A stretch of 36,690 bases of DNA from the NCBI GenBank assembly GCA_012513365.1, contig JAAZCI010000200.1, forward strand, positions 1 to 36,690, given 5' to 3'. A program made the position numbers and the translations under genes. The notes beneath the pieces were generated by a model that saw only the letters and a program-made list of their open reading frames with translations, made no database searches and was not told where the DNA came from. Shown here piece after piece: positions 1,639 through 27,727 of this stretch. Origin of the DNA: Lysobacteraceae bacterium (lineage in GTDB: Bacteria; Pseudomonadota; Gammaproteobacteria; Cardiobacteriales; Wohlfahrtiimonadaceae). Position 1 is the first letter of the stretch; every line of letters starts with the position of its first letter.

Positions 1639-2310
1639 ATGATTGAACTCTCAGCCATTCATCTCACCGGTGCCGATGCGAGCACCTTTATTCAAGGCCA
1701 AATCACCGCCGATATTAATCATCTTAATTTTATTGAGCAAACTGCCGAAAACACGGGGCTTGGGGCGCTTTGTACCCATCAAGGCCGTGTGGTCGTTGTG
1801 ATGTGGATTATCCGTCATGCTGAAGACGATATTGTGCTCTTAATGCCAAGCGATATGGCAGAGCAAATTAAAGCCCATCTCACCAAATTTGTCTTTATCT
1901 CTAAGGTGAAAATTGAGCTTAGAGAGGCGCTAGCGGACGAGCTTGCTACGCTTCCTGAAGATCTATTAATCCCCTGGATTACCAAAGCGACGACGGAAAA
2001 ATTTGTGCCTCATATGTTAAGCCTCGATAAACTAAACGGGATTCACTTTAAAAAAGGGTGCTATACCGGACAAGAGGTGGTGGCGCGGATGGAGTATTTA
2101 GGCGCTCCGAAACGCCGCCTTGCAAAAATTACAGCAAGTAACGTAAAAGAACTTGCCTATGGCGCAGAAATCCTTAATGATGAGGATAAATCAGCGGGAA
2201 CAATTATCTACTTTGAAGGGGATAATGCGCTCGCGGTGATTCAATTGAGCGCGAAAGAATCGGCGCTAAAACTTAATGAACCCATCACGATCGAACATAT
2301 TTGGGAGTAA
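1639..2310 (+). CDS. ygfZ: YgfZ/GcvT-like folate-binding protein
   Basis: Folate-binding protein that supports assembly or repair of a subset of Fe-S enzymes (known for E. coli YgfZ), acting in the cytoplasm. The signature KGCYTGQEVVARMEYLG is present near residues 138-155; its cysteine is the family hallmark. At 223 residues it is clearly shorter than E. coli YgfZ (about 326), mainly by a trimmed N-terminal folate-binding portion and C-terminal barrel. An AAGGAGAC ribosome site precedes the ATG. The phosphofructokinase gene follows after 10 bp, so ygfZ, pfk and ridA probably form one transcript. Confidence 0.88.
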   Translation: MIELSAIHLTGADASTFIQGQITADINHLNFIEQTAENTGLGALCTHQGRVVVVMWIIRHAEDDIVLLMPSDMAEQIKAHLTKFVFISKVKIELREALADELATLPEDLLIPWITKATTEKFVPHMLSLDKLNGIHFKKGCYTGQEVVARMEYLGAPKRRLAKITASNVKELAYGAEILNDEDKSAGTIIYFEGDNALAVIQLSAKESALKLNEPITIEHIWE

Positions 2311-2320
2311 AAACACTATC

Positions 2321-3355
2321 ATGGCGAACGGAAAACATATCGGGATTTTAACCGCAGGCGGTGACTGTCAGGGGCTTAACGCAGCGCTTCGAGGCGTTAC
2401 CTTATCGGCGCTCAAAGAGGGCTGGAAAGTCACCGGGATTAATGACGGATTTGTTGGATTGGCAGAAATGGCGCACACGCCCCTTACCTTTGAAGATGTC
2501 TATCAAATCGCAGGAACCGGTGGCACCATTTTAGGAACCGGCCGTGGCGGTGGACGCGCCCGCAATACCGAAGAAGCGGTCGCGAACTGCGTTGAGAGTT
2601 TTAAAAAATTAGAGCTCGATGCCCTTGTGTGCCTTGGAGGTGATGGAACGCAACGATTTGCCTCCTATCTCCATCAGGCGGGCATTCCGGTCGTCACCCT
2701 TCCGAAAACCATCGATAATGACATTGCGAAAACCGATGTCACCTTTGGCTATGATACGGCGGTTCACGTCTCAGTGATGGCGCTCGATCGCCTTCGCACC
2801 ACGGCCGATTCTCATCACCGCCTAATGATTTTAGAGGTGATGGGGCGCGATGCCGGTTGGTTAGCCGCGGGAGCCGCGCTTGGTGGCTCGGCGGATATCT
2901 GTCTTATTCCTGAGATGCCCTACTCGATGGAATCGCTCGTCAAATATATTAACAAACATATCTATAACAAACGCTCGGCGCTACTTGTGATCGCGGAAGG
3001 CGCAGTCTCGGAAGAGAATCACGCGCTCGGTCTTAAACCAAAAAAACATGCCGAAGCGATTAAGATCGTCGATGCTATTCCAGAACTCACCGGAATGCAA
3101 GCCCGTTTAACAACGCTTGGTTATGTGAGCCGTGGCGGCGTGCCAACGGCAAGTGACCGAATTTTCGCAACCCAATGCGGGACTAAAGCGATCGAGCTCA
3201 TTAAAAAATCACAATACGGTGTGATGGTCGCGCAACAAAATGGTAAACTCACCTCGGTGCCGATCGAGGAAGTGGCCGGGAAACCCCGTCTATTACCGCG
3301 CAATCATAGCCTCATTAAAACGATGCTCGACACCGGCGTCTGCATGGGCATTTAA
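2321..3355 (+). CDS. 6-phosphofructokinase, phosphoryl donor ambiguous (ATP or PPi)
   Basis: Phosphorylates fructose 6-phosphate in glycolysis; reversible if PPi is the donor. The 344-residue protein has the PfkA-type fold: GILTAGGDCQGLNAALRG at the N-terminus, LGGDGTQRF (106-112), LPKTIDNDI with catalytic Asp near 132, and MGRDAGWLA (174-182). The residue after GGD is Gly, as in ATP enzymes, while the one before TIDND is Lys129, as in PPi enzymes. This mixed pattern is known from both ATP- and PPi-using group III enzymes, so the donor is not settled by sequence. The reading frame is open from 2276, but ATG 2321 begins exactly at the family N-terminus. It lies 10 bp after ygfZ. Confidence 0.9.
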   Translation: MANGKHIGILTAGGDCQGLNAALRGVTLSALKEGWKVTGINDGFVGLAEMAHTPLTFEDVYQIAGTGGTILGTGRGGGRARNTEEAVANCVESFKKLELDALVCLGGDGTQRFASYLHQAGIPVVTLPKTIDNDIAKTDVTFGYDTAVHVSVMALDRLRTTADSHHRLMILEVMGRDAGWLAAGAALGGSADICLIPEMPYSMESLVKYINKHIYNKRSALLVIAEGAVSEENHALGLKPKKHAEAIKIVDAIPELTGMQARLTTLGYVSRGGVPTASDRIFATQCGTKAIELIKKSQYGVMVAQQNGKLTSVPIEEVAGKPRLLPRNHSLIKTMLDTGVCMGI

Positions 3356-3397
3356 CCCGAATCACACGCACTATAAAAATACTATCAAGGAGACATC

Positions 3398-3781
3398 ATG
3401 AAAAAAATTATTCATACTGATAACGCACCGAAAGCGGTGGGTCCTTATTCACAAGCGAATGCGCTCGGTAACTTAGTCTTTACCTCAGGCCAAATTCCAC
3501 TCGATCCTGCTACGATGCAAGTGGTCGAGGGCGATGTAAAAGCGCAAGCACGCCAAACACTCCTTAACTTAAAAGCGGTACTTGAAGAGGCGGGAGCGGG
3601 ATTTGATAGCGTACTTAAAACCACCTGTTTCTTAGATGATATTAAAGATTTTGCCGCTTTTAATGAAGTCTATGCAGAGTTCTTTGGCTCTGAAAACACC
3701 CCTGCGCGCTCATGCTTTGAAGTGGGTAAATTACCGATGGGCGTATTAGTGGAAGTGGAAGCGATCGCTTACGTTAAATAA
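3398..3781 (+). CDS. ridA: RidA family reactive intermediate deaminase
   Basis: Hydrolyses reactive enamine/imine intermediates such as 2-aminoacrylate that arise from PLP enzymes, protecting other PLP enzymes. The 127 residues match the family length. Visible motifs are AVGPYSQA near the N-terminus, TSGQIPLDP, and ARSCFEVGKLPMGVLVEVEA near the C-terminus, whose Arg and Glu line the active site of the trimer. An AAGGAGAC ribosome site precedes the ATG. It is the last gene of the ygfZ-pfk-ridA group and ends before a strong terminator. Confidence 0.95.
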   Translation: MKKIIHTDNAPKAVGPYSQANALGNLVFTSGQIPLDPATMQVVEGDVKAQARQTLLNLKAVLEEAGAGFDSVLKTTCFLDDIKDFAAFNEVYAEFFGSENTPARSCFEVGKLPMGVLVEVEAIAYVK

Positions 3782-24676: not shown

Positions 24677-25474
24677 CTATCCGTTAATTCGGGCAATGAG
24701 TCCTTCGAGCTCATCGATCATCACCACTAAATTCTCAGGTTTTGAGAGACGATGATCGCCCCCTTCCACCGGAACGAGCACGCTATCCTCTCGCCCACAT
24801 TCACGGTAAAGCTTTTCGCCCCAGCTAAAGGGAATCGCCGCATCATCGGTACCGTGGACAATCGTCATCGGTAGATCGACCCGCATGTTTAGGGGGAAAT
24901 AGAGATGCTGTTTCGCCTCTTCTAAGTAAGCGGCATAAATGGGATAACCATCAGCTTCATAGATCGACGGCAAACGCACGACGCCTTTCGTTGCAAGATC
25001 GTTTTTCTGCTCGTCATTTAACCGCGTCATTACAATGTTTTCCGTATAATCCACCGCCGGCGCCATCAGCATGAGGCCAACGGGGGTAATATCGCTGTTA
25101 CGCTCGCGCAAGAGATTGACGAGCAATAGAGTAATCCAACCGCCCATCGAAGAGCCGACAATGATCACTTCACGCCGAGTGTTCTCGATCATCTGTACCA
25201 CCTCAAACGCCTCTTCAAGCCACTGGCCTAAGCGCCCTTCTGGAAAAGTACCGCCGCTCTCACCAAGCCCTGAATTATCAAAGGCGAGCATCTCGTAATT
25301 ATTCGCATCCGCCCACGCTTTAAGGTGCACCACTTTTTCGCCCGATTTATTGGAACGATAGCCATTAAGCCACAGTAGTGCCGGTTTTTGCGGATCACCC
25401 TGACGATGATCAAAGGCAATCTCTCTGCCATATCCCTCAAAATCCACGCGTAAACGACCTTGAATCCAAGCCAT
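24677..25474 (-). CDS. alpha/beta hydrolase
   Basis: Cytoplasmic serine hydrolase of 265 residues. The nucleophile elbow is VGSSMGGW with Ser near 109. Candidate acid and base are in TIVHGTDDAAIP (near 210) and VEGGDHRLS (His near 241), so the triad looks complete. The oxyanion strand LLWLNGYRSNKSG is near 33-45. The layout resembles small acyl-thioesterase/ABHD10-like hydrolases; the substrate is unknown. The frame opens at 25495, but a strong AGGAGG lies 5 nt before the ATG at 25474, which is chosen. A perfect FNR-type box lies about 40 bp upstream. Confidence 0.87.
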   Translation of the reverse strand: MAWIQGRLRVDFEGYGREIAFDHRQGDPQKPALLWLNGYRSNKSGEKVVHLKAWADANNYEMLAFDNSGLGESGGTFPEGRLGQWLEEAFEVVQMIENTRREVIIVGSSMGGWITLLLVNLLRERNSDITPVGLMLMAPAVDYTENIVMTRLNDEQKNDLATKGVVRLPSIYEADGYPIYAAYLEEAKQHLYFPLNMRVDLPMTIVHGTDDAAIPFSWGEKLYRECGREDSVLVPVEGGDHRLSKPENLVVMIDELEGLIARING

Positions 25475-25511
25475 TTTATCCTCCTCTAAAAACATTATAT
25501 TATTTTATATA

Positions 25512-25525
25512 TTGATTAAGATCAA
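25512..25525. promoter_or_regulatory. perfect FNR/Anr-type box
   Basis: TTGATTAAGATCAA matches the FNR consensus TTGAT-N4-ATCAA at all ten specified positions. It lies in the divergent region, 38 bp before the hydrolase start and 139 bp before the fmdB-like gene. A TATAAT on the minus strand at 25499-25494 would put the box centre near -31 for the hydrolase, a repressing rather than activating position. Confidence 0.6.
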
Positions 25526-25587
25526 ATCAAATGCCCTATCATCATACGGCGAGGCTCAATTTTGCGCCACCGCCTCCCGACAATAAG

Positions 25588-25616
25588 CTGAAATTTTTCC
25601 AAAAATATCATATAAT
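25588..25616 (+). promoter_or_regulatory. promoter of the fmdB-like/aspS genes
   Basis: A perfect TATAAT (25611-25616) is preceded, with 17-bp spacing, by CTGAAA (25588-25593; 4 of 6 matches to TTGACA). Transcription would start near 25623, giving a leader of about 40 nt before the fmdB-like ATG. Confidence 0.6.
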
Positions 25617-25663
25617 TTATCTCTTTCGTTTAATAATATTTAGATAAATTAGAGGTAATTGCT

Positions 25664-25876
25664 ATGCCGATTTATGCTTATCGTTGTGAAGAGTGCAATC
25701 ATGAGCTTGAAGCTTTGCAAAAGATGTCAGATGATCCGTTAGTGAAATGCCCTCAATGTCAGAAACCTGCCCTTAAAAAATTGATCTCGGCAGCCTCCTT
25801 TCGTTTAAAAGGCGATGGCTGGTATGAGACCGACTTTAAGAGCGGATCGAAGAAAAATCTTGCCTCATCTGATTAG
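25664..25876 (+). CDS. FmdB family zinc-ribbon protein
   Basis: A 70-residue protein starting MPIYAYRCEECNHELE, with two Cys pairs (Cys8/11 and Cys29/32, as CEEC and CPQC) that should bind one zinc. The tail GDGWYETDFKSG is typical of the family. The name comes from a putative regulator of formamidase; no biochemical role is established. The location directly before aspS is a recurrent arrangement in proteobacteria. AGAGGT precedes the ATG. Confidence 0.9.
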   Translation: MPIYAYRCEECNHELEALQKMSDDPLVKCPQCQKPALKKLISAASFRLKGDGWYETDFKSGSKKNLASSD

Positions 25877-25948: not shown

Positions 25949-27727
25949 ATGCGAACTCATTATTGTGGATTAGTTAGTGAAGAACTAGTCGGAGAGAGCG
26001 TAACCCTCGCGGGTTGGGTTCATCGTCGCCGTGACCATGGTGGCGTTATCTTTATTGACCTGCGCGACCGTGAAGGCATCGTTCAGGTGGTGATCAATCC
26101 TGAAAGCCCAGACTTTGCTGAAGCTGAAACGATCCGTAATGAATGCGTTGTTCAAATCGAAGGTGAAGTGGTACTTCGCCCCGATGATATGATCAATCCA
26201 AACATCGTATCGGGTAAAATCGAAGTGGTTGCCAACCGCTGTAAGATTTTAAACCGTGCCGAAGCGCTCCCCTTCCAACTGGGTGATGACACGACCTCAG
26301 AAGAAGTTCGCTTAAAATATCGCTATCTCGATCTGCGTAATCCGAAGATGCAAAATCGTCTGATTTTACGCTCTAAAGTGACCCGTTTAATCCGTGAATT
26401 TATGGAAAACAAGGGCTTTTTAGATATCGAAACCCCATTTTTAACCAAAGCAACGCCCGAAGGCGCGCGCGACTACGTAGTGCCTTCAAGAACCCATCAA
26501 GGGGAATTTTTCGCGTTGCCACAAAGCCCGCAGCTCTTCAAACAGCTCTTAATGATGAGCGGCTTTGACCGTTATTATCAGATCGTTCGTTGCTTCCGTG
26601 ACGAAGATTTACGTGCCGACCGTCAGCCTGAATTTACTCAGCTCGACGTAGAAACCTCATTTTTAAGCGCCGAAGAGATCCGTGAGATTGCTGAAAATAT
26701 GATTCGTCATATCTTTAAAGAATCGATCGGCGTTGAACTTACCGCAGAATTCCCACAAATGACCTACGCAGAAGCGATGGGCCGTTTCGGGTCAGATAAG
26801 CCTGACCTTCGTATCCCGCTTGAGTTTACCGATGTTACTGAATTGATGAAGTCGGCAGAATTTAAAGTCTTTAAAGATGCCGCGAATATGGAAAAAGGCC
26901 GCGTTGTAGCGCTCAACATTCCAAATTCATCGGATAAATTCACCCGTAAAAACATCGACGAATATACGGAATTTGTTAGCCGTTACGGTGCGAAAGGCCT
27001 TGCCTACATTCGCGTAAATGATGCGAAAGCCGGTCGTGAAGGCCTCCAATCGCCCATCGTTAAATTCTTAGACGATGCAACGCTTACCGCGCTTTTAGAC
27101 GCCGTAAATGCAAACGATAACGACATCATCTTCTTCGGTGCGGACAAAGCAACCGTTGTTAATGATGCTATCGGCGCACTTCGCGTTAAAATCGGTAAAG
27201 ATCTCGATATGTTAACCTGTCAGTGGGCGCCTTTATGGGTAATCGACTTCCCGATGTTTGAGTATGATGAAGATGAGAAACGCTATGTGGCGGTTCATCA
27301 CCCCTTCACCTCGCCAAAAACCGGCATTGAATCATTGACCGATCCTGAAAATTCACTGGCTAACGCGTATGACATGGTCCTTAACGGAACCGAGCTTGGC
27401 GGTGGATCGATTCGTATCTACAAACCGGACATGCAAGCGAAAGTATTTGAGCTTTTAGGCATCTCAAAAGAAGAAGCGGAAGAGAAATTTGGCTTCCTAC
27501 TCGATGCGCTTAAATACGGAGCACCTCCTCACGGCGGTATCGCATTCGGTCTTGACCGTTTAATCATGCTGATGGCGGGCGCAAGCTCCATCCGTGATGT
27601 GATGGCTTTCCCTAAAACACAATCCGCAGCGTGTCTCTTAACGGACGCACCTGCCGCAATTGGGGATCGTCAGCTCAAAGAGCTCAACATTGCTGTATTG
27701 GAAAAAGAAGAGAAAGCTGAGAAATAG
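25949..27727 (+). CDS. aspS: aspartate--tRNA ligase, probably nondiscriminating (Asp/Asn)
   Basis: Class II synthetase of 592 residues charging tRNA-Asp. The OB-fold anticodon domain (1-105) is followed by the catalytic core with motif 2 [16 protein letters not shown] near 217-232, the bacterial GAD insertion domain (about 285-420) and motif 3 [12 protein letters not shown] near 530. In the anticodon loop region the sequence is [10 protein letters not shown], with His at residue 30. Enzymes that also charge tRNA-Asn (such as that of Pseudomonas aeruginosa) have His here, whereas discriminating ones such as E. coli have Leu (RRRDLGS). AAGGAA precedes the ATG. Confidence 0.97.

Follow-up and report, generated by a model that had tools for sequence, protein, structure and literature searches.

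The window, which is the whole stretch of 36,690 nucleotides that was analysed, contains a 189-base divergent spacer (25475-25663) from which a hydrolase gene runs leftward and the fmdB-aspS pair runs rightward. The leftward gene (24677-25474, minus strand) codes for an alpha/beta hydrolase of 265 aa that matches the Pfam family Hydrolase_4 (6.9e-16). Compared with the PDB, its product matched 3llc (9e-38), 8trf (4.7e-37) and 6ny9 (4.7e-22, over residues 29-262 of 265). We take 6ny9 to be ABHD10, a mycophenolic acid acyl-glucuronide esterase, and refer to the gene, which is the repression target proposed in this work, as ABHD10-like. A mechanical list of open reading frames put its start at ATG 25495. 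This was replaced by ATG 25474, which has a Shine-Dalgarno sequence that can be read five bases before it (AGAGGAGG, 25480-25487 on the minus strand). On the plus strand lie a gene for a zinc ribbon protein of the fmdB family (25664-25876, 70 aa; TIGR02605 7.9e-23, PF09723 8.5e-19) and an open reading frame (25949-27727) that has relatives with 72-74% identity in six Wohlfahrtiimonas records. From its sequence we assume the latter to be aspS, encoding aspartyl-tRNA synthetase.

Within this spacer, positions 25512 to 25525 read TTGATTAAGATCAA on the plus strand, without mismatch to the FNR consensus TTGATNNNNATCAA. All ten specified bases of TTGAT-N4-ATCAA are present, with TAAG between the half-sites, and the element, to which no strand is assigned, is centred at 25518.5. 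The exact match over ten bases had been claimed in an earlier note on this DNA, and it was confirmed by reading and by a pattern scan of the window, where it is the only perfect match. The chance expectation of about 0.03 per window that had been quoted with it is too low: with the dinucleotides of the window itself about 0.10 perfect matches are expected, and 0.012 in its 3,445 spacer bases. Four more matches carry one mismatch. The five matches with at most one mismatch compare to 2.64 +/- 1.34 in shuffled sequences, and since at least five were reached in 9 of 100 shuffles, one-mismatch boxes were dropped as evidence and given no weight.

The earlier note had proposed to look for an fnr/anr gene, and an FNR orthologue was indeed found in the genome. 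It has a Crp-type helix-turn-helix (PF13545, 66.6 bits, cut-off 27), it scores above the cut-off of the FNR subfamily (NCBIfam NF008365, 256.3 versus 228 bits), and its nearest solved relatives are FNR regulators (1.8e-64). In an alignment with the solved FNR regulators 9qll and 5cvr its residues C9, C12, C18 and C111 fall on cysteines, and its VETVSRLL stands opposite VETISRLL of solved FNR regulators, so that the E-xx-SR motif is present. We take the four cysteines to be the ligands of a 4Fe-4S cluster and E-xx-SR to be the part of the recognition helix that reads TTGAT. Of the 18 genomes that represent the family, 17 yielded an FNR. The assembly of the window has a completeness of 97.04% and a contamination of 6.91%. 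FNR and the hydrolase each have a 100% identical counterpart in G057, the second assembly of the species, and neither is therefore a contaminant of the window's assembly. No other Crp-family binder was found over the HTH_Crp_2 cut-off, which one of three matches passes, in this genome that is 97% complete and may thus miss a gene. The two weaker matches to HTH_Crp_2, which by eye look AsnC-type and GntR-type, stayed below the cut-off and were rejected as Crp-family binders.

Perfect matches were collected from both assemblies of the species. There are 10 in the window's genome and 13 in G057, and eight 14-mers are common to both. A Markov expectation, about 6.1 perfect boxes per genome, served as the main control, and the excess over the whole genome is modest (10 and 13 versus about 6). 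The reversed pattern occurs 0 times in both assemblies and 0-4 times across the 18 genomes of the family; since fewer matches are expected for it (0.9 versus 6.1 per genome), it was not made the main control. In the window's genome, seven of the ten boxes stand in spacers upstream of genes; of the other three, two fall within genes (presumably rplC- and hsdM-like) and one is just past the end of an open reading frame. The 13 boxes of G057 comprise eight that are clearly in spacers, one doubtful case, three in open reading frames and one in a CRISPR array, with spacer status judged from open reading frames of at least 80-90 aa. From the spacer composition of the window 0.73 spacer boxes per genome are expected, compared to 8-9 in G057; this spacer model is rough, being drawn from a single window (3,445 spacer bases, spacer share 9.4%). 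The Poisson probability is about 1e-6 for at least eight spacer boxes and about 1e-5 for at least seven, while about five boxes inside genes are expected by chance per genome. By this rough model perfect boxes are concentrated in spacers. The ratio of 0.73 expected to 8-9 seen implies that about one spacer box in ten arises by chance, and a spacer box in the window's genome would be genuine about nine times in ten.

Among the eight clear spacer boxes of G057 is the one before the hydrolase. Another lies between an SCP2 (ubiT-like) gene and a peptidase U32 (ubiU-like) gene (L063 1988-2001, corresponding to G057:C1:206087-206100; G000:C224:3016-3029), where FNR is likely to control oxygen-independent ubiquinone synthesis. 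Perfect boxes also precede the genes of a ferredoxin-reductase-like enzyme, of an FAD oxidoreductase and of a SoxA/TsdA-like cytochrome c (L070 2050-2063; G000:C268:6171-6184), the last being a candidate FNR target. One box lies between another gene and a gene that we assume to be htpG-like, and a luciferase-like monooxygenase gene has one on either side, of which the second is also upstream of a DUF454 gene (L072 2002-2015 and 3234-3247; G000:C22:2633 and 1401). The doubtful spacer box is found beside a beta-lactamase-fold gene. The boxes in open reading frames of G057 fall into the N-terminal codons of a presumably permease-like frame, into a presumably parC-like frame and into rplC (by the 14-mer alone). 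The CRISPR array of G057 (L067 about 1703-3710, G057:C2 about 708500-710500) has the repeat GTTACCCGCCGAATAGGCGGCTTAGAAA, which to our mind resembles type I-F repeats, with a period of 60 bases, and holds one perfect FNR-like box.

In E. coli, sites in FNR-repressed promoters range from upstream of the -35 region to the transcriptional start, while in FNR-activated promoters with known start 19 of 23 sites are located at -41.5 +/- 4, with a further one at -60.5 (according to the available part of PMC3688515). On the hydrolase side, a candidate -10 hexamer TATAAT was recognised by eye (25494-25499, minus strand). As the earlier note had stated, its use would place the box near -31, with transcription starting at about 25487 and the box centre at about -31.5. 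A good -35 hexamer is missing 17 bases upstream of it, and a promoter scan did not return it. The scan, applied to a 301-base stretch, returned an alternative sigma-70-like promoter for the hydrolase (TTGATT-17-TAAAAT, 25502-25530, minus strand, 9/12), with the box in the promoter spacer and its centre at about -23.5, and a candidate promoter for fmdB-aspS (CTGAAA-17-TATAAT, 25588-25616, plus strand, 10/12). These are two sites versus 1.6 from shuffles, so the scan speaks weakly for either promoter. The box overlaps both candidate hydrolase promoters and, by their putative starts as placed from the sequence, falls for both into the interval given above for FNR-repressed promoters of E. coli. 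If the Shine-Dalgarno sequence 25487-25480 is used, transcription can begin no farther downstream than about 25487, which would put the centre of the box no farther upstream than about -31. A -10 hexamer at the spacing of a class II activator site (20-24 bases past the box) reached at best 3/6 toward the hydrolase and 2/6 toward fmdB. This test separates poorly and is weak, since among the other spacer boxes that were examined 8 of 16 sides reach 4/6. As judged from these distances, repression of the hydrolase appears to be a better fit to the position of the box than class II activation on either side.

G057 carries the box unchanged. Its copy of the 189-base spacer departs from that of the window at 1 base, outside the box, and the 1,000 bases before fmdB show 9 differences. 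With a single difference in the whole spacer, identity of the box within the species says little. Outside the species, the search before orthologues that the earlier note had suggested gave a negative result: no box was found within 200 bases upstream of the hydrolase homologue in six Wohlfahrtiimonas genomes (up to 2 mismatches), and none within 300 bases upstream of fmdB in seven related genomes (0-1 mismatch). At the fmdB loci, L035 and L036 have a match with 2 mismatches at -151, and one-mismatch matches occur at +7 inside fmdB (L038, L039) and at -640 (L039). The neighbours of both genes differ in these relatives. In the six Wohlfahrtiimonas genomes the hydrolase homologue, which is 35-40% identical, stands directly behind a gene that we take to be nitronate-monooxygenase-like. 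Upstream of fmdB, six of the seven relatives have what are presumably rpsA- and ihfB-like genes and one has other sequence. The neighbourhood of the hydrolase thus differs within the family, and fmdB, too, is found with other neighbours in relatives. The hydrolase itself was found in 11 of 32 genomes of the order, namely in both assemblies of the species and in six genomes of Wohlfahrtiimonas, with weaker matches in three others (G019, G015, G011); it had no match in G002, the one genome of a third genus. A search for closer hydrolase relatives in a collection of genome contigs gave 49 stretches that matched the pattern, none of which was confirmed. The genus of the window is represented in the collection by this one species with its two assemblies. 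Neither the box nor the neighbourhood in which it lies is conserved outside the species, with one species to stand for the genus.

FNR is active in the absence of oxygen as a 4Fe-4S dimer. Without oxygen it would bind the palindrome over the core promoter of the divergent hydrolase gene; bound FNR would hinder RNA polymerase, and the hydrolase would be made mainly in air. Binding, the start of transcription, and direction and size of the effect are what we infer from the sequence. The palindrome is probably an FNR operator, a real site of an ordinary and well-known type, and both the regulator and the placing of boxes across the genome lend good support to reading the box as an FNR site. Repression of the hydrolase appears likely from the geometry. 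Taken as a whole, we consider an ordinary FNR operator that lowers expression of the ABHD10-like hydrolase without oxygen to be the best account of the locus, with a probability somewhat better than even. The earlier proposal that FNR/Anr could repress the hydrolase is upheld in part: the FNR orthologue, the intact box in G057, the concentration of boxes in spacers and the geometry speak for it, while the absence of the box before the orthologues of relatives speaks against it. A lineage-specific rearrangement may have brought the ABHD10-like hydrolase beside fmdB-aspS; by acquiring a promoter of its own and an FNR operator there, the gene would have come under oxygen control in the lineage of the window (one species so far). 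We regard this history as conceivable, with the balance tilted slightly against it. The Wohlfahrtiimonas counterpart is a gene without a box, directly behind another gene.

Other explanations have to be considered. A palindrome that arose by chance in an AT-rich spacer, and is either unbound or without effect, would agree with the roughly 0.10 perfect matches expected in a window of such composition, with the other perfect boxes of the genome that sit inside the rplC- and hsdM-like genes, and with the failure to find the box outside the species. We nevertheless consider this unlikely, as only 0.012 matches are expected in the spacers of the window, the spacers of the whole genome hold 8-9 boxes versus 0.73 expected, and the box overlaps the candidate core promoters of the hydrolase.

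FNR bound to the box could also serve fmdB-aspS, either from afar or by an unmapped upstream promoter. Of the two promoter matches that were found, that of this pair comes closer to the consensus, and the distance of about -104 given in the earlier note is right when counted from the TATAAT at 25611-25616. So remote a position disagrees with the distances of activating sites in E. coli given above, and the seven relatives lack a box with 0-1 mismatch before fmdB, which makes this explanation rather improbable. Least credible is activation of the hydrolase from the box, to which we give little weight. The box centre is situated about 44 bases before the start codon, but a class II start at about 25477 would fall after the Shine-Dalgarno sequence, which speaks against class II activation and is in keeping with a repression geometry; moreover, the best -10 hexamer at class II spacing reaches 3/6.

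Repression of the hydrolase by FNR would give a genus related to Wohlfahrtiimonas one likely direct target, next to several further candidates, and leaves the general picture of FNR unchanged. A narrow search limited to open-licence papers found no work on FNR in Wohlfahrtiimonas or Ignatzschineria, and no literature linking ABHD10 with FNR was found. The hydrolase of the window is homologous to ABHD10 (6ny9) and to the bacterial hydrolases 3llc and 8trf, the latter two being closer by score. The predicted arrangement resembles E. coli promoters that are repressed by FNR, such as that of ndh (PMC3688515, available part), in having a consensus box over core promoter elements and an FNR orthologue in the genome. 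It differs from ndh-type promoters in its target, an ABHD10-like hydrolase rather than a respiratory enzyme, and repression is a prediction here. The divergent spacer between ubiT and ubiUV of E. coli is likewise under control of FNR, which activates there (PMC10470549, as far as the available part goes). Both are divergent spacers with an FNR box, and in the genome of the window the ubiT/ubiU-like spacer, too, contains a perfect box. Toward the ubiU-like gene of that spacer, TATCTT is present at class II spacing (gap 22, 4/6), whereas the hydrolase side reaches 3/6 at best.
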